64,000 bases of DNA from Chitinophaga pinensis (lineage in GTDB: Bacteria > Bacteroidota > Bacteroidia > B-17B0 > Aurantibacillaceae). A program made the position numbers and the translations under genes. Below, piece after piece: positions 14,148-64,000 of this stretch. Numbering within the stretch: the stretch's first letter is position 1; each line of letters opens with the position of its first letter. The notes beneath the pieces are model-generated. The model was not told where the DNA came from. It ran no database searches and worked only from the letters and a program-made list of their open reading frames with translations. The stretch covers positions 79,078 to 143,077 of the forward strand of contig CAMAPT010000001.1 in the NCBI GenBank assembly GCA_945860225.1, given 5' to 3'.

Positions 14148-14741
14148 TCAAATTAAGACTGCTTCTTTTCTTTCATCTAACATTTTTTTCATGTTAATTA
14201 AAGCATACCTCATTCTACCTAGGGAGGTATTAATTGAAACATTGGTTAAATCAGCTATTTCCTTAAAACTCATGTCATAGTAGGTACGCATAATAACCAC
14301 TTCTTTTTGATCCTGCGGAAGGTTATTAACTATAGATCTAATTGTATTTTTGATTTGCTTTGTTTCTTGATCATTTTTTTTATTTTCCATATCATTTGGT
14401 ATGATATCAAAAATATTCGTTTCTTCTCCTTCATCATTTAGAACAACTGAAATCGAAGGCATCTTTTTAACTTTCCTAAAATGATCTATCATTAAATTTT
14501 TAGCTATTCGCAACACCCATGGCAAAAATTTCCCTTCCTCATTATACTGTTGTCTTTTAAGAGTTTGGATAACTTTAAAAAAAGTTTCCTGAAACATATC
14601 TTCCGCTAATTCTCTATTTCGAATAACTAAATAGATATAAGAATAAATACGTCTTTTATGTCGTTTGATTAAAACGGAAAGGGATTCTTCGTTACCTTCT
14701 ATGTAAAGCTTTACAAGCTCATTATCAGAAAATGAATTCAT
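14148..14741 (-). CDS. ECF-type RNA polymerase sigma factor
   Basis: About 197 residues from the internal ATG giving MNSFSDNELVKLYIEG; two further Met codons lie 3 and 2 codons upstream. Region 2 is at about residues 20-90 (RELAEDMFQETFFKVIQTL, then FLPWVLRIAKNLMIDHFRK). An acidic linker follows, and then region 4 (LPQDQKEVVIMRTYYDMSFK, EIADLTNVSINTSLGRMRYA), which is a helix-turn-helix. It redirects RNA polymerase to a stress or envelope regulon; the target is unknown. No anti-sigma gene is adjacent, so its regulator must be encoded elsewhere or it is controlled at the level of expression. Confidence 0.85.
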   Translation of the reverse strand: MNSFSDNELVKLYIEGNEESLSVLIKRHKRRIYSYIYLVIRNRELAEDMFQETFFKVIQTLKRQQYNEEGKFLPWVLRIAKNLMIDHFRKVKKMPSISVVLNDEGEETNIFDIIPNDMENKKNDQETKQIKNTIRSIVNNLPQDQKEVVIMRTYYDMSFKEIADLTNVSINTSLGRMRYALINMKKMLDERKEAVLI

Positions 14742-14886
14742 ACACATCATACTACTCTGTAAAAGATTTAATAAAATTAAATTAGGTAGATGTATATGCG
14801 ATAAAGAGAATTTAAAAGATTAATAAATAGATTACGAATATAATAATTTTCAATTAATAAGCATTATTTAGTTAAAAAACTTATGA

Positions 14887-15771
14887 CTAAAAAAATGAGC
14901 CTAATACATGAAGTAATTTGTCTACTTGACTATGCCACAATAATTTAGAAGATATTTCATCATTTTTATCAGAGGCAAAATCAGTGATAATTAAAGAAAT
15001 ATCATTTGTTAATTCGTCTTTTTCAATTCTAAACTCAAAGTAACTTCCATCCTCCTTGTCTAACCATTGATACCTTATAAATGCTGGAGGAACTTCTTTA
15101 ACTAATCTAGCTTGTTGAATTTGACCATCCCAATTGAACGTAAAAATATTATTTTTAATATTCACGTCATCACAAAACCACTCCGAAAGCCCGCTTTCTG
15201 TGCTTACAAATTCAAAAACCATATCTTCTGAAGCCTTTATGACAAACTCCATTTCAAATTTTCCGGCAGGTTCTTTAGATACTTTTGACGCTTGATTAGA
15301 ATTTGTGGAGCTATATGTTGTAGGAGCTACAATAGTTTTTTTTGATACAGATGGTTTTTCTTTTTTAGGAGAAGGGGTCGGTTTTGAAGTGTTAACTAAC
15401 AAATTTGGCTTTGTTGTTTTTTCAGTTTTTAACCCTTTTTTATCCGCAGAGGCCTCCACTTTTTTAACAGTCACTTTGTTTTCCATTTTTTTCTTCACAT
15501 TCTCTTTTAAACTCGGTGTAACTGTATTAGATGATTTTTTCAATACTTTCTTAGCTTCGGCTTTGACGGTTGCAACTTTTTTAGAAACCGCTTTTTTATT
15601 AACTACGTCTTTTTTGGATGTCTTTTCTTTGATTTCGTTTTTAGACTTCGCACTTTTTTGATTTGAAACTGCCTTATTAACGATAGACACGTCGACGCTA
15701 GATGGTTTTTTTGTAACCTTTTTAACAACTACTTTTTTGTTTTTAGCGGAAGTCTTAGTTTTTGACAACAT
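14887..15771 (-). CDS. START-like domain protein with long lysine-rich N-terminal tail
   Basis: A 294-residue protein from the ATG at 15771. The frame stays open upstream to 15912, but a promoter box at 15775-15782 argues for 15771. Residues 1 to about 169 are low complexity, with 47 lysines plus many Ser/Thr/Val/Ala/Pro, resembling histone H1 tails. The last 125 residues form a START/AHSA1-like domain (FVIKASEDMVFEFVSTESGL, SEWFCDDV, YFEFRIEKDELTNDISLIIT). In Bacteroidota this domain usually stands alone at about 125-130 residues, so the tail is unusual. The helix-grip fold binds hydrophobic ligands in other members; the tail could bind DNA or RNA (inference). It is divergent from mutL. Confidence 0.75.
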   Translation of the reverse strand: MLSKTKTSAKNKKVVVKKVTKKPSSVDVSIVNKAVSNQKSAKSKNEIKEKTSKKDVVNKKAVSKKVATVKAEAKKVLKKSSNTVTPSLKENVKKKMENKVTVKKVEASADKKGLKTEKTTKPNLLVNTSKPTPSPKKEKPSVSKKTIVAPTTYSSTNSNQASKVSKEPAGKFEMEFVIKASEDMVFEFVSTESGLSEWFCDDVNIKNNIFTFNWDGQIQQARLVKEVPPAFIRYQWLDKEDGSYFEFRIEKDELTNDISLIITDFASDKNDEISSKLLWHSQVDKLLHVLGSFF

Positions 15772-15774
15772 AAC

Positions 15775-15782
15775 CGAATATA
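15775..15782 (-). promoter_or_regulatory. -7 promoter box for the START-domain gene (leaderless spacing)
   Basis: The minus strand reads TATATTCG followed by G, one base from the TAnnTTTG consensus (TTCG is a common variant). Only three bases separate it from the ATG at 15771. It supports the chosen start, since a longer protein would begin upstream of its own promoter. Confidence 0.4.
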
Positions 15783-15885
15783 ATTTTTGTGAAATATAAG
15801 AAATAAAATGAGATATTAAAAAAAAATTGCTTTTTTTTATTTGTGCTAAAAAGCACCGTTTTTTAGGGAAAATCATGTAAAAAAT

Positions 15886-15893
15886 TACCTTTG
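15886..15893 (+). promoter_or_regulatory. -7 promoter box for mutL (leaderless spacing)
   Basis: TACCTTTG matches TAnnTTTG exactly and is followed by C. The mutL ATG begins 6 bases later (15899), so the transcript should start at or next to the start codon. Confidence 0.55.
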
Positions 15894-15898
15894 CAGAT

Positions 15899-17758
15899 AT
15901 GCAAAATGTCATTACCCTTTTACCTGAAAGTGTAGCTAATCAAATAGCAGCGGGAGAAGTCGTTCAGCGACCTGCGTCTATTGTTAAAGAATTACTTGAG
16001 AATGCCATTGATGCAAAAGCAACCTTCGTTAAATTAATTGTTAAAGACGCTGGAAAAACGCTCATTCAAGTCATTGACAATGGAATTGGGATGAATGCTG
16101 TTGATGCACGTATGGCATTCGAACGTCATGCCACATCCAAAATAAAAAAGGCAGATGATCTTTTTGATTTGCATACCAAAGGATTTAGAGGAGAAGCTTT
16201 AGCGAGTATTGCTGCTGTTGCACAAGTTGAACTAAAAACTAAAAGAGAATCAGATATTGTTGGTCAACTAATTGAAATTGAAGGAAATAAATTCATTAAG
16301 CAAGAAGAATGTCAAACTCAAACTGGCTCCTCTTTTAGTGTTAAAAATTTATTTTTTAATATTCCGGCTCGACGTAATTTTTTAAAGGACGATCATATAG
16401 AATTAAAACACATTCATGATGAATTTGAACGCGTATCATTACCTCATTCAAACATTCATTTTCAGTTTTACAGTAACGGTAACGAAATTTATAATTTACC
16501 CGCATCAAACCTTATTGAACGAATATCCGGTTTATTCAGCAAAACATTGCAAAGTAAATTAGTTCATATTAACGAAACAACAGATGTTGTTTCTATGTCA
16601 GGCTACATTGGTAAACCTGAGAGTTCAAAAAAACGCCGTGGCGATCAATATTTTTTCGTGAATAATCGTTTTATAAAAAGCCCCTATTTGCATCATGCTG
16701 TTGCCGAAGCATATAGAGAATTAATTGCAAACGATCATCATCCAATTTATTATTTATTCTTAGAAGTTAATCCTGCTACCGTCGATATTAACATTCATCC
16801 TACCAAAACTGAAATTAAATTTCAGGATGAAAAAATCATTTATGCCTTGCTTCACAGTGCCGTCAAACGATCCTTGGGGAAAGCGAATCTTGCTCCAAGT
16901 CTTGATTTTAACAGTGAAATGAGTTTTGATATTGATTATACCAAATCCGTATCTCAACCCACTGTTCAAGTTAATCTCGATTACAATCCTTTTAATACAG
17001 AAAGTTCTTCTACTCAGCTTTCAAACTCCTATTCTCACAAAAAAACTTCTCAAACAGACTTACAACGCCATAATCAAGAGAATTGGGAAAATCTATACCA
17101 GAATTATAATCAAACTGACTATAAAGCTGAAATAGAGCATTTAAAACTCGATACCCAAGCTGAGCAAGAAAAATTAGACTACGGAACTGACGTTCGTAAA
17201 GGATTTCAGTTGTATAACAAATATATTATTTCTTCATACGAACAAGGCTTATTAATTATAGACCAACAACGAGCCCATGAACGTATTTTGTATGAACATT
17301 ACGTTTCTACAAAAAACAGAAATCTAGCAAATGGTTCACAACAGATTTTGTTCCCGGTAACATTTGAATTAACCGCCAATGACTTTATACTTCTCGAAAG
17401 CCTATCTTTTCACTTTAAAACATTAGGTTTTGAAATTGAACCTTTTGGCAAAAATACTGTTGTAATCCGCGGTACTCCTGCCGAATTAGGAGAATTTAAC
17501 ACTCAGGAGATGATTGAAGGCATATTGGAAACATACAAATTAAATACCTTTGATACGAAACTTGATCCTTTTGAAAACATGTGTAAAAGCATGGCTAAAC
17601 AAGCCGGAATAAAGTATGGTAAAAAATTAGAAGATGATGAAATTGCCTTAATGCTCGAACATTTATTTAACTGTGAAAATCCAATGTATAGCCCAAATGG
17701 AAAACCTATTATAATGGAAATGAGCAAATTAGATTTAGATGCCTTTTTCAAAAAATAG
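15899..17758 (+). CDS. mutL: DNA mismatch repair protein MutL
   Basis: A 619-residue protein. The N-terminal GHKL ATPase has ANQIAAGEVVQRPASIVKEL (13-32) with ENAIDA (34-39), then DNGIGM, and TKGFRGEALASI at about 95-106. The C-terminal dimerisation domain carries a DQQRAHERILYE motif (about 450-461), matching the DQHA(X)2E(X)4E endonuclease signature in its Bacteroidota form, plus SPNGKPIIMEM near the end. It couples mismatch recognition by MutS to strand incision. It heads a + strand run with two rhomboid genes starting 12 bases later, probably an operon. Confidence 0.95.
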   Translation: MQNVITLLPESVANQIAAGEVVQRPASIVKELLENAIDAKATFVKLIVKDAGKTLIQVIDNGIGMNAVDARMAFERHATSKIKKADDLFDLHTKGFRGEALASIAAVAQVELKTKRESDIVGQLIEIEGNKFIKQEECQTQTGSSFSVKNLFFNIPARRNFLKDDHIELKHIHDEFERVSLPHSNIHFQFYSNGNEIYNLPASNLIERISGLFSKTLQSKLVHINETTDVVSMSGYIGKPESSKKRRGDQYFFVNNRFIKSPYLHHAVAEAYRELIANDHHPIYYLFLEVNPATVDINIHPTKTEIKFQDEKIIYALLHSAVKRSLGKANLAPSLDFNSEMSFDIDYTKSVSQPTVQVNLDYNPFNTESSSTQLSNSYSHKKTSQTDLQRHNQENWENLYQNYNQTDYKAEIEHLKLDTQAEQEKLDYGTDVRKGFQLYNKYIISSYEQGLLIIDQQRAHERILYEHYVSTKNRNLANGSQQILFPVTFELTANDFILLESLSFHFKTLGFEIEPFGKNTVVIRGTPAELGEFNTQEMIEGILETYKLNTFDTKLDPFENMCKSMAKQAGIKYGKKLEDDEIALMLEHLFNCENPMYSPNGKPIIMEMSKLDLDAFFKK

Positions 17759-39088: not shown

Positions 39089-41731
39089 ATGGGAAAAAAT
39101 TTAGTTATTGTGGAATCTCCGGCTAAAGCTAAAACTATTGAAGGTTTTTTAGGAAAGAATTTTACTGTTAAATCTAGTTTTGGCCACATTAGAGATTTGG
39201 TTAAGAAAGGATTTGGTGTTGATATAGAAAACAACTTCACCCCTACTTACGAAGTACAACCCGATAAACAAAAAGTAATTGCAGAGCTGAAAAAACTCAC
39301 TGAAGGAGCCGATATGGTTTGGTTGGCATCCGATGAGGATCGAGAGGGAGAAGCTATTAGCTGGCATTTGTACGAAACGTTAGAATTATCCAAAAAAAAC
39401 ACAAAACGTATCGTATTTCATGAAATCACTAAACCGGCCATTTTAAAAGCTATTGAAAATCCTAGAGAAATTGACATTAATTTAGTGAATGCCCAACAAG
39501 CTCGTCGTGTGTTAGACAGATTAGTTGGTTTTGAACTTTCTCCAATTTTATGGCGCAAAGTTAGGCCAAGTTTATCTGCCGGACGAGTACAATCAGTTGC
39601 TGTTCGATTAATTGTGGAAAGAGAGCGAGAAATACAAAAATTTGAATCTACTTCTGCTTATAAAGTTTCTGCCTTATTTAAGGTAGGGTCTGGCATATTA
39701 AAAGCGGAGCTTGATAAGCGCTATGCTAAAGAATCCGATGCAATGGCATTTCTAGAAAAATGCAAAAATGCCTCTTTTACTATCGAAAGCCTTGAAACAA
39801 AACCGGCAAAACGTTCTCCAGCTGCTCCATTTACCACATCTACTTTACAACAAGAAGCAGCTCGCAAATTAGGTTTTTCTGTAGCTCAAACCATGCAGAT
39901 AGCTCAGCGCTTATATGAGGCAGGTAAAATTACCTACATGAGAACAGACTCGGTTAATTTATCTGATACCGCTTTGGGACAAGCTAAACAAGCTATTAAC
40001 GAAAATTATGGTGCTAAATACCATCATCCTCGCAAATACAAAAACAAAAACAAAGGTGCTCAAGAAGCTCACGAAGCCATCAGACCAACCTATATAGACA
40101 GGACATCTGTTGATGGTGAACGAAATGAGCAACGGTTGTACGATTTGATTTGGAAAAGAACCATTGCTTCACAAATGAGTGATGCTGAATTGGAGAAAAC
40201 AACCGCAAAAGTCAATGTAAGTGGGGCTACAGAATTATTTATTGCTCAGGGCGAAGTTTTAAAATTTGATGGTTTCTTAAAAGTTTACATGGAAGGAACT
40301 GATGATGAAAATACGGATGATGAAAATTCCTCTATGCTACCTCCAATGAAAATTGGAGAACTCGTAGAAAGTCAATTCATTTCGGCAACTCAACGCTTTA
40401 CTCACCATCCGGCAAGATATTCTGAGGCTAGTTTAGTAAAAAAATTAGAAGAACTAGGAATAGGTCGTCCGTCAACTTATGCCCCGACTATTAGTACGGT
40501 TCAAAAACGTAATTATGTTGAAAAAACAGATAAAGAAGGCTGGTCAAGACAATATGTGAGTTTAAGTTTGACCAAAAAGAATATTACCAGAGAGACAAAA
40601 ATAGAAAATACAGGTGCTGAAAAAGCCAAATTATTTCCGACTGATATTGGAATGGTTGTAAATGATTTTTTACTTAAGTATTTCCCAACTATTTTAGATT
40701 TTAACTTCACTGCTAAAGTTGAAGAAGAATTTGATGAAATTGCAGAGGGGCATCTTGACTGGCAAAGCATGTTAAAAGACTTTTACACGCCATTTCACGA
40801 AACGGTAGAATCAACCACTGAAAATAGTGAACGCGCAAGTGGAGAACGCCAACTAGGAATAGATCCTGAAAGCGGTAAACCCGTAAGCGTTCGTGTAGGT
40901 CGCTTTGGACCCTTAGCACAAATTGGTGAAAGTTTTGAAGGCTCTGATGAAAAACCTAAATTTGCCAGCCTAAGAAAAAATCAAAGCATTGAAACTATTA
41001 CACTAGAAGAGGCTTTAGACTTATTTAAACTTCCAATGACGCTAGGTCATTATGATGGTAAAGAAGTAGTTGTTTCAGTTGGAAGATTTGGTCCATATAT
41101 CAAATTAGACGATGCCTTTATATCTATTCCCAAAAGTATAGATCCTTTAACGCTTGATATGGAAAAAGCGATTGAAATTATTAAAGAAAAGGAAGAGGCA
41201 GATGCACCAATTGCACATTACCAGGAAAAAGGCGTAACCAAGGGTAAAGGTCGTTTTGGTCCATTTATTAAGTATGATGGTTTATTTATCAATGTTCCAA
41301 AAGCATATAATTTCGACCATTTATCTCAAAAAGATATTGAAGAACTTATAGAGAAAAAATTAGATAAAGAAGCAAACCGATTTATACAACAATGGCCCGA
41401 AGAAAAAATTGCTATTGAAAATGGTCGATGGGGACCATTCATTAAGTTCGGGAAATTAATGTTAAAACTAATCAAAAATGGTGGTGGAAAATATACTCCT
41501 GAAGAATTGATTACAGTATCATTAGAAGATGTAAAAAAAATGATAATAGCTCAAGTGCCTAGCGCATTTGATAAAAAATCATCCAAAAAATCAACCACAT
41601 CTTCAGGAAAATCGAAAGTGGTAAAATTACCAAAAGAACCAACAAAAAAAATATCAACCTCAAAAGCAGCCTCTGCTAAAACAGCACCTAAAAAAGTGGC
41701 TGTAAAAAAAACAGTTTCAAAGAAGAGTTAA
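39089..41731 (+). CDS. topA: DNA topoisomerase I (type IA)
   Basis: An 880-residue enzyme that relaxes negative supercoils. The Toprim domain begins NLVIVESPAKAKTIEGFLG (4-22) and has SDEDREGEAI (81-90). The catalytic Tyr283 is in ITYMRTDSVNLS. After the core (to about 600) come Bacteroidota-type C-terminal repeats with the recurring 'GRFGPFIKYDGLFINVPK'-like unit (four to five copies) instead of Cys4 zinc fingers. The end is a tail of about 60 residues very rich in Lys/Ser/Thr, similar to the tail of the START-domain protein at 14887-15771. Confidence 0.95.
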   Translation: MGKNLVIVESPAKAKTIEGFLGKNFTVKSSFGHIRDLVKKGFGVDIENNFTPTYEVQPDKQKVIAELKKLTEGADMVWLASDEDREGEAISWHLYETLELSKKNTKRIVFHEITKPAILKAIENPREIDINLVNAQQARRVLDRLVGFELSPILWRKVRPSLSAGRVQSVAVRLIVEREREIQKFESTSAYKVSALFKVGSGILKAELDKRYAKESDAMAFLEKCKNASFTIESLETKPAKRSPAAPFTTSTLQQEAARKLGFSVAQTMQIAQRLYEAGKITYMRTDSVNLSDTALGQAKQAINENYGAKYHHPRKYKNKNKGAQEAHEAIRPTYIDRTSVDGERNEQRLYDLIWKRTIASQMSDAELEKTTAKVNVSGATELFIAQGEVLKFDGFLKVYMEGTDDENTDDENSSMLPPMKIGELVESQFISATQRFTHHPARYSEASLVKKLEELGIGRPSTYAPTISTVQKRNYVEKTDKEGWSRQYVSLSLTKKNITRETKIENTGAEKAKLFPTDIGMVVNDFLLKYFPTILDFNFTAKVEEEFDEIAEGHLDWQSMLKDFYTPFHETVESTTENSERASGERQLGIDPESGKPVSVRVGRFGPLAQIGESFEGSDEKPKFASLRKNQSIETITLEEALDLFKLPMTLGHYDGKEVVVSVGRFGPYIKLDDAFISIPKSIDPLTLDMEKAIEIIKEKEEADAPIAHYQEKGVTKGKGRFGPFIKYDGLFINVPKAYNFDHLSQKDIEELIEKKLDKEANRFIQQWPEEKIAIENGRWGPFIKFGKLMLKLIKNGGGKYTPEELITVSLEDVKKMIIAQVPSAFDKKSSKKSTTSSGKSKVVKLPKEPTKKISTSKAASAKTAPKKVAVKKTVSKKS

Positions 41732-55317: not shown

Positions 55318-55439
55318 GGTAAAACCATGCATCTTCATTTGTCTTTGTGCGCGCAACACATGGTTATTTCATAACAAGATGTTCGTAATTTATTTTTTCA
55401 GGTATGCTTAGAAGTGGATTAATGAACGTAATTTGTTGC

Positions 55440-55709
55440 ATGAAAAAAACAATTGTCTTTTTTTTATTATTCTTTAGTTTTAGCTATTTTCAAACAAATG
55501 CACAATTTTCTGAAAGTAAGGAAAGAAAAAAAATGTGGAGAAAATCAGCTAGAAAGCACAAAAATAGAGATGCTTTTAATCCTTATTTAAGTAAAAAAAA
55601 TAAACCAAGTTCTGAATTAGCCAAAGAAAATATACGTGAACAAAAACGTCAGTTAAAAGCGGCAAAAAAACAAAAACGTAAAAACAAAAAAAAATTAGGT
55701 TACAACTAA
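55440..55709 (+). CDS. small basic exported protein
   Basis: 89 residues from the ATG at 55440 (MKKTIVFFLLFFSFSYF); an earlier ATG at 55404 would spoil the signal peptide. Cleavage is likely after TNA, before QFSES. The mature part of about 66 residues is extremely basic (KERKKMWRKSARKHKNRDAF; the tail is KRQLKAAKKQKRKNKKKLGYN) and has no cysteine. No function is known; a role in binding anionic polymers such as nucleic acid or capsule is only inference. REP-like palindromes flank it on both sides. Confidence 0.6.
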   Translation: MKKTIVFFLLFFSFSYFQTNAQFSESKERKKMWRKSARKHKNRDAFNPYLSKKNKPSSELAKENIREQKRQLKAAKKQKRKNKKKLGYN

Positions 55710-62601: not shown

Positions 62602-64000
62602 TTAGGCTTTACGGGTATGTTTTTGAGTTGCTAAAGAAAACTTAATCTCTGAATACGAATAATTATCTCCTAAAACCTGTTTAACTGCGGCCAATACATT
62701 ATCACCGTTTACTTTACTTAAAATATCAATTATTATTTCGAATTTTTCTTTTGCCACAAACTCTGTCACAGGAATCATTCCAAGACTAACGTAATGTGCT
62801 AAATGACCCTCAATGGTGCCAATAGAAAAGCCTCTTTCCTCAGCAATCTCAGATACGTTTTTCCCTTCTTTAAACAAAACAAAACTCAGTTCTTTAGTAT
62901 TTGGTTTTTTAGGTGACAATACCTTTTCTTCTTTTTGTTTTGACGAGGTAGAGGATTTTGTTATTTTTTTAGTTTTTCGATCCTCAAAAGATTTTTTTTC
63001 GGTCAAATTAATTGCTTGCTTAGCCAATTCGAAACGTTCTTGCTGATTTTCTTTGTCTTGTAATTGTTGTTTATTAAACTCCTTATTATTAATAATATTA
63101 TCGAGCAAAACGGACAGTTTACCAAATTGTCGAATATGTTTATATATCAATCCCTCTAGTTCTAATAACTCCTCTAAATACGTTTTAATTTGTTTTTCGT
63201 CTTTTAGCAGTCCAATGTGAACTAATATGGATTTTGATATATCTTTGAAGACAGGATAAAAATAATTTTTAGCCGCTATATGTCTAGATTGAATTATATG
63301 TAAATAATCTTCAGAATAACTCTCAAAAATTCTTTCTAATTGATTATTAAATTTATCGACATTCGATTTTACTGGTTCAAATTTCTCAAATAATTCTTGT
63401 GCCCATGTTTGATGTTTTTGCTTATTTGATTTGTTTTCGGACATAGAATAACTTTCGATGTGTTTTTTGAAACAAGTATATAGCCAGCTAAAATTATACG
63501 TGCTCAAAACAAACGATTTTAAAAAGAATGCCGTTTCTTTTTGAATCAAATCATTTACCTCGTCAGTTTGAGGTTTATTATCAGCATAACTTACCAAAGT
63601 TTTGTCTTGCGAAATGACATTAAATTGTATTGGGGAAGTTAATACCAAACCTTGTAATGATTTTAAACGAGATAATGCAACATAAACCTGACCAGGAGCA
63701 AAAGCATCATTTATATCTAAAATTGCTTTTTCAAAAGTTAATCCTTGACTCTTGTGAACAGTAATTGCCCAAGCTAATTTAATAGGATACTGTGTAAAAG
63801 TTCCAATTTCCTTTTCTTCAATTTCGTTAGTTGCTTGATTTAATTCATATTGAATATTTTTCCATTCATATTTCTCTAATACCATCGTTTTTGTCCCATC
63901 CCTAAAATCAACCTCAATTTCATCCTTTTCATTTAAAGAGGATATAACGCCTATTTTTCCATTAAAAAATTGTTGTTTCCCACTAGGGTCATTTTTTATA
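62602..64000 (-). CDS. Pif1-like helicase with C-terminal HTH_40 domain, 5' part beyond window
   Basis: The frame is open from the stop at 62602 to the right edge (about 465 residues seen). The extension past the first internal ATG (63885) reads DPSGKQQFFNGKIGVISS, a beta-barrel segment of the family, so the N-terminal ATPase half is outside. Helicase motifs V and VI are present: WAITVHKSQGLTFEKAILDI and GQVYVALSRLKSL. A long charged linker follows (about 300 residues with coiled coil and a KITKSSTSSKQKEEK stretch). The C-terminal helix-turn-helix (ISEIAEERGFSIGTIEGHL-like) matches HTH_40, as in RecQ tails. It probably unwinds DNA or RNA-DNA structures. Confidence 0.8.
   Translation of the reverse strand, partial: IKNDPSGKQQFFNGKIGVISSLNEKDEIEVDFRDGTKTMVLEKYEWKNIQYELNQATNEIEEKEIGTFTQYPIKLAWAITVHKSQGLTFEKAILDINDAFAPGQVYVALSRLKSLQGLVLTSPIQFNVISQDKTLVSYADNKPQTDEVNDLIQKETAFFLKSFVLSTYNFSWLYTCFKKHIESYSMSENKSNKQKHQTWAQELFEKFEPVKSNVDKFNNQLERIFESYSEDYLHIIQSRHIAAKNYFYPVFKDISKSILVHIGLLKDEKQIKTYLEELLELEGLIYKHIRQFGKLSVLLDNIINNKEFNKQQLQDKENQQERFELAKQAINLTEKKSFEDRKTKKITKSSTSSKQKEEKVLSPKKPNTKELSFVLFKEGKNVSEIAEERGFSIGTIEGHLAHYVSLGMIPVTEFVAKEKFEIIIDILSKVNGDNVLAAVKQVLGDNYSYSEIKFSLATQKHTRKA

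Follow-up and report, generated by a model that had tools for sequence, protein, structure and literature searches.

A START_2 protein of the Bacteroidota with an unusual, lineage-specific polycationic N-terminal tail

Within the 64,000-nucleotide stretch of DNA analysed here (the window), one reverse-strand gene (14887..15771, -) encodes 294 amino acids plus a stop, with a lysine-rich tail followed by a START_2 domain. Its open reading frame runs from an ATG at 15771 to a stop codon at 14887-14889. The tail spans residues 1-169 (15265..15771, -) and is considered disordered on the strength of its composition and a structure model, while the domain spans residues 170-294 (14890..15264, -) and was assigned by a Pfam match together with a helix-grip fold. 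An earlier note on this DNA, made from its letters, had described a START-like domain fused to a lysine-rich tail; both the fusion and the placement of its parts are borne out (PF19569 at residues 171-291, tail at residues 1-169). On one side lies mutL, transcribed divergently (15899..17758, +), with a 127-bp spacer between the two start codons (15772..15898) in which promoters are presumed to lie. On the other, across a 136-bp gap, lies a downstream gene for a sigma-70-family factor (14148..14750, -). The same neighbours were seen in 16 (mutL) and 19 (sigma factor) tailed loci, counts that include the window and copies. A Bacteroidota-type promoter pattern was uninformative (19 matches against 26.7 expected).

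The assignment of the domain is secure at the level of family. The PF19569 match (residues 171-291, E 9.4e-35, 119.7 bits against a cut-off of 23.6) covers positions 6-125 of the 126-position profile and is the single match of that profile in the window's genome. A Pfam search of the whole protein at E values up to 1 returned START_2 as the sole match, with no Aha1 family and no linker-histone domain. By sequence, the domain is the same as that of the solved family member BfR322 of Bacteroides fragilis (PDB 2lio; E 9e-19), which has 136 residues and no long tail, whereas the window protein has 294. A structure model, built from 47 sequences selected from the window and its relatives, gave pLDDT 80-96 for the block at residues 171-290 and 43-57, without secondary structure, for residues 1-160. 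Foldseek matched the modelled domain to 2lio (E 1.8e-7, TM 0.59 by target length), which identifies a helix-grip fold. The top solved folds were Aha1-type domains at 14-18% identity, namely 2m89 (Z 15.7, rmsd 2.5 over 124) and 6xlb, the Aha1 C-terminal domain with Hsc82 (Z 14.8, rmsd 2.8 over 123), with other helix-grip proteins within 1 Z of these among the matches listed. An Aha1-like fold in a model does not show co-chaperone activity for START_2.

The start at 15771 is supported because the N-terminus of the window protein, MLSKTKTSAKNKK (15733..15771, -), is similar to that of close kin (MSTKTKASSKNKK or similar, alignment by eye), and because, in 34 of the 84 distinct relatives with a tail, the frame is closed by a stop no more than 10 codons ahead of the first ATG. 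Across 47 aligned sequences, M1 never varies and K4 hardly does. An alternative ATG at 15912 would give 341 residues and reach 14 bases into mutL, whose divergent start is at 15899. The earlier note had named a start near the domain, which would leave the tail unmade, as the outcome that would overturn its reading; such a start is not favoured, as the N-termini of kin and the upstream in-frame stops point to 15771. Residue 96 is the only internal Met of the window tail. Among 100 tailed loci, a set that includes same-genome copies from two collections, 60 have a single in-frame ATG before the domain and 12 have an in-frame ATG at most 20 codons from it; the tree, dN/dS, 83- and 85-tail and 160-locus sets used below were de-duplicated.

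The tail had been put at about 169 residues with 47 lysines and few hydrophobics. The length is right, the lysines number 46, and F/W/Y/L/I/M/C do account for just 12 of the 169 residues. With no arginine and 12 D/E, the net charge is +34, which together with a lysine fraction of 0.27 makes this tail the least lysine-rich when compared with close kin (L002-L014, K 0.31-0.36, net +59 to +72). Mean composition over 83 tails, a set in which the window tail (L001) is read from the ATG at 15912 (216 aa), was 31% K, followed by A, V, P, S and T, with F at 0.7%, Y at 0.4% and W and C rounding to 0.0%. The tails read range from 50 to about 380 residues; one (L158, 249 aa) probably begins later, at MAKKKK. 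Family f70 includes short tails of 50 and 58 residues with 40% lysine (L130, L159) beside tails of 133 and 166 residues, and the short ones are possibly an intermediate or reduced form. The description 'histone-H1-like' is a matter of tail composition only. That much was correct, whereas membership in such a family was not found: the NCBIfam bacterial histone H1-like model NF038053 scored 10.3 bits against a cut-off of 80 (E 0.6), and no other Pfam family matched.

The tail also has recognizable ends, as seen in a motif search over tails. In the window it closes with TIVAPTTYSSTNSNQASKVSKEPA (15265..15336, -), which comprises the APTT[FY]-like motif of close kin and, where the domain joins on, EP-x; 73/85 distinct tails have [EDG]P-x as their last residues before the domain. 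A pattern for the N-terminus matches 50/85, the window's own tail not being among them. Close to their end, 22/85 tails (e.g., L024, L026 and L036) have a SKIASISSSITNP-like segment of lower charge, a candidate interaction motif. In seven of the 85 tails a basic [GS]R[KR] block, with an acid run after it, is found 61-73 residues ahead of the domain (L115, L147, L148, L150, L151, L154 and L163, from families f74, f80 and f81); the block is GRKPK-like and, by eye, AT-hook-like. A second copy of the tail was sought in the genome and only a weak match (E 0.13) appeared, in an open reading frame that reads by eye like aspartate carbamoyltransferase; we took it as chance.

As the DNA of the tail is A-rich, its lysine content could have a trivial origin. 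Of 20,000 order-1 Markov draws from the tail DNA, 1,766 reached at least 46 lysines, which makes the lysine count unremarkable, and the case therefore rests on the open frame and on conservation. None of the 20,000 draws remained open over 169 codons. An AT-bias artefact as the origin of the tail is rejected on the basis of the open frame, although the lysine count alone would not exclude it. Over 85 distinct tails, from loci of 28 to 66% GC, K+R is 0.32 (sd 0.03) and does not follow locus GC (r -0.01), while the AAG share of lysine codons does (r 0.67). Lysine alone correlates with GC at r -0.34, or r -0.01 without the 66% GC row (L164, f64), in which arginine and lysine jointly carry the charge. 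For alignable pairs (tail identity of 0.62 or more across no fewer than 100 columns, from which the window tail is too diverged and was left out), dN/dS was 0.11-0.37 in the tail and 0.00-0.08 in the domain; these pairs are not independent, alignment of repetitive tails favours similarity, and dS had no defined value for one tail comparison and eight of the domain and was near saturation in others. In the same pairs 83-100% of the aligned lysines persist, with 2-25 of them per pair encoded by a different codon. Since K+R is steady over GC, codon choice tracks GC and dN/dS in the tail is 0.11-0.37, the tail is probably translated and selected for charge. The feature itself is real: relatives retain its frame and its charge, and it is under purifying selection, with charge rather than sequence apparently being preserved.

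In a class-wide sample, 322 of 395 genomes have START_2; in a phylum-wide one, 100 of 395 do, with few second copies in either. Sampled frames were measured from stop to stop, and composition was read at fetched loci only. Among the best 150 matches listed for the class, 102 frames have at most 197 aa and 48 have at least 270 aa; among the matches listed for the phylum, every frame has at most 190 aa except the window's own. In the window's order, represented here by one family, 74 of 87 genomes have START_2, and 73 of 75 frames measure 270-411 aa, the two short ones beginning at most 165 bases from a contig end. Tails were also read in families other than the window's (f59, f61, f62, f64, f70, f73, f74, f80, f81, f88, f93, f114 and f120), although the loci taken from genome contigs are the best 80 of 240 relatives, so that close kin are favoured and tail counts are not frequencies. 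In f80 and f81 both tailed and untailed genera are present. Untailed members that were read mostly start within 20 residues of the domain.

The comparison of homologue lengths proposed in the earlier note thus shows a lineage-specific tail, yet one with a more complicated distribution than a single lineage. In a domain tree of 162 rows and 126 columns, made by a quick method and with many open forks, 74 tailed rows, the window included, form one supported set (97) of eight families, whereas the tailed rows outside it come from 6 families. The tailed/untailed label needs 8 changes on this tree, of which supported branches force one and a miscalled start (L128, scored as tailed among the 84 tailed rows) probably adds another. 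L128 was left out of the tail composition, neighbour and motif counts, and two loci cut by contig ends (L149 and L054) were left out of the tree and the tail counts. The basic-acidic block is common to f74, inside the supported set, and to f80 and f81, outside it. This favours common descent of the tail with later losses over many separate gains, though the domain is too short to settle the matter. An origin of the tail as a split-off neighbour gene was also considered, and no donor was found at five untailed loci (L168-L172, from f81 and f80): flagged K/R-rich open reading frames there have 40-188 aa, and the nearest upstream one on the same strand is about 960 bases off, as judged by K/R content, length and position. 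Two source labels look wrong: the START_2 domain of L038, on a contig labelled Parachlamydiaceae, is identical to that of Bacteroidota L026, and L061, labelled Chryseobacterium gleum, groups with Cryomorphaceae rows in the tree.

A similar tail had been noted at the end of topA in the window, and this is correct. The separate topA gene (39089-41728, +) has 18 lysines in its last 60 residues and ends with about 50 lysine-rich residues (41570..41728, +) similar in composition to the START_2 tail. As in actinobacterial TopA, a lysine-rich, low-complexity tail is thus joined to a conserved protein, but TopA tails are C-terminal and on a DNA enzyme, whereas the START_2 tail is N-terminal. The actinobacterial tail is linked to processivity (PMC7398561). 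Counting a TopA as lysine-tailed when its last 60 residues include 15 or more K, we found such a tail in 15/18 tailed and 6/13 untailed genomes (closed frames). Among genomes without a START_2 call, it was present in 2/2 from the window's family and 0/2 from elsewhere, with one open frame uncounted. There is no clear shared topA-START_2 system, because TopA tails occur in tailed and untailed genomes alike; the topA tail is a parallel to the START_2 tail and not a demonstrated partner. Several TopA tails from this genus and family have a VKKAASKKxAPKKVAAKK-like stretch in common. Elsewhere in the window, 40-residue stretches with 13 and 12 lysines occur in the frames at 55389-55706 (+) and 62605-63999 (-), respectively.

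The neighbourhood of START_2 in other lineages provides a lead on the domain. Among 160 distinct loci with a called open reading frame at +1, a same-strand PAP2-superfamily gene occupies that position in 34 (22 untailed, 12 tailed) and a same-strand LptF/LptG-family gene in 30 (28 untailed, 2 tailed), with families assigned by Pfam search of cluster representatives; these counts include near relatives (e.g., many Cryomorphaceae/Schleiferiaceae loci) and are not independent. A PMT_2 gene, which we take to be of GT39 type, lies at +2 in 12 of the 160. The PAP2 and LptF/LptG +1 clusters carry 27 family codes or labels besides unlabelled members, where codes and labels may overlap, a few members come from other positions and near relatives are counted singly. 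In 16 of the 30 gaps listed, the START_2 stop and the PAP2 start overlap by one base, which suggests translational coupling. Given how few such genes there are among about 3,000 per genome, we estimate that the adjacency to PAP2 and LptF/LptG genes is far above chance. Family f5 differs in having an aminotransferase class IV gene at +1 (20 loci) and, further out, one of AlgH-like type (19 loci). Neither PAP2 nor LptF/LptG genes occupy +1 or +2 in the window's close kin. Overall, the recurrent neighbourhood, either an LptF/LptG-family gene or PAP2 followed by PMT_2, points to an envelope-lipid or LPS-linked role for the domain. The protein is probably cytoplasmic, because no signal peptide is apparent by eye.

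No paper on the function of START_2, its tail or its neighbourhood was found in our searches of the open-licence literature, and the closest architectural precedents are PhaF and AlgP of Pseudomonas, in which a client domain likewise carries a lysine-rich tail that is long and disordered. Their tails are C-terminal and their client domains are different, whereas the START_2 tail is N-terminal; no homology between the START_2 protein and PhaF or AlgP emerged from the general domain and structure searches. The PhaF tail binds DNA (PMC3574117), the AlgP tail is histone H1-like in composition and needed for granule spacing (PMC9239181), and lysine-rich low-complexity regions are non-specific DNA binders (PMC6821194).

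The nucleic-acid binding suggested in the earlier note is plausible for such a tail. In our preferred reading, to which we give roughly even odds (about 0.5), the tail is a polyanion-binding tether, most likely for DNA or RNA, on an envelope-linked protein that works by analogy with PhaF and AlgP. The window protein would be the form that this lineage has of a START_2 protein usually present in one copy, extended at the native start of the domain by a disordered N-terminal stretch. That strongly positive stretch would act as a polyelectrolyte tether keeping the domain attached to polyanions, of which nucleoid DNA and cellular RNA are the likeliest, and the domain would act on an envelope lipid, or on the LPS-export or lipid-modifying proteins encoded nearby in other lineages. 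As in PhaF and AlgP, one domain would serve the client and one lysine-rich tail the nucleoid. A nucleoid or RNA tether is favoured because the composition fits DNA-binding lysine-rich regions and because PhaF and AlgP show the same pairing of such a tail with a client domain. Counting against it, untailed START_2 relatives manage without a tail, and sequence cannot separate DNA, RNA, polyphosphate and anionic lipid as the target. The comparatively low lysine content of the window's tail, the fall of lysine alone with GC once the 66% GC row is counted, and the lack of PAP2 and LptF/LptG neighbours among the window's close kin weigh on the same side.

If the target were instead anionic lipid, the tail would be an electrostatic anchor to the membrane or to LPS phosphates, placing the domain on the inner side of the cytoplasmic membrane, close to LptF/LptG-type and lipid-modifying proteins. 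The same-strand PAP2 (34/160) and LptF/LptG-family (30/160) neighbours and the one-base overlaps with PAP2 genes (16 of 30) are consistent with this. However, the tails are very poor in aromatics, unlike typical basic-amphipathic membrane anchors, and 28 of the 30 LptF/LptG cases are untailed, which makes a membrane anchor possible but unlikely.

More doubtful still is a starvation-responsive role in which the tail would bind inorganic polyphosphate, by analogy with AlgP at granules (PMC9239181). Every one of 83 tails contains a 20-mer with at least 75% P/A/S/K/D/E, a loose ad hoc definition, but the KPAA-type repeats of which the AlgP tail is built occur in 14/83 START_2 tails and not in the window's. 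Polyphosphate kinase was found in 37/38 tailed and 10/14 untailed genomes (52 of 60 relatives with a START_2 match), a weak lean towards polyphosphate that is dominated by one family, which contributes 31 of the 38 tailed genomes and was called tailed by frame length; against it, no PPK match turned up in one of the tailed genomes, G447, which is 84% complete.

A further idea, which seems improbable to us, has the tail driving RNA-dependent condensation and so controlling whether the domain is active, with the disordered region of Bacteroides Rho (BtRho, PMC13269538) as a precedent from the same phylum. The basic block beside an acid run in 7/85 tails and the pairing of an acidic domain with a basic tail agree with such a switch, but 78/85 tails lack that block, and the domain is less acidic in tailed (-9.9, n=83) than in untailed members (-13.1, n=78), raw values that include kin. 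Docking of the tail on the acidic domain is not favoured, as this difference runs opposite to what it would require. Finally, we practically dismiss the tail as a functionless, neutral low-complexity by-product of A-rich DNA: composition-matched draws do reach the window's lysine count (1,766/20,000), but none of the 20,000 is open, K+R is near-constant from 28 to 66% GC, dN/dS is below 0.4 and the tail ends are similar among relatives.

Returning to the tether on DNA or RNA, a bolder extension would make START_2 a class-wide cytoplasmic partner of LPS export and lipid modification (LptF/LptG, PAP2 and PMT_2-type proteins), in a large clade of which a nucleic-acid-binding tail couples envelope lipid traffic to the nucleoid or RNA; we regard this as a long shot. 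In any case the protein belongs to START_2 and has a polycationic tail that is unusual and lineage-specific; the functions we assign to its two parts are inferred from sequence. START_2 occurs widely in one of the major bacterial classes, a structure of the family has been solved, and the most useful new lead is the family's lipid/LPS neighbourhood. Two handles make START_2 testable, namely its recurrent place before LptF/LptG-family and PAP2 genes and its conserved polycationic tail, and the presence of the tail in some lineages and its absence in others amounts to a natural gain-or-loss experiment. The tail is also a clear bacterial case of a disordered region that appears to keep charge rather than sequence, from 28 to 66% GC. 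If the coupling proposed here is true, a lysine-rich disordered tail would link the chromosome and outer-membrane biogenesis.
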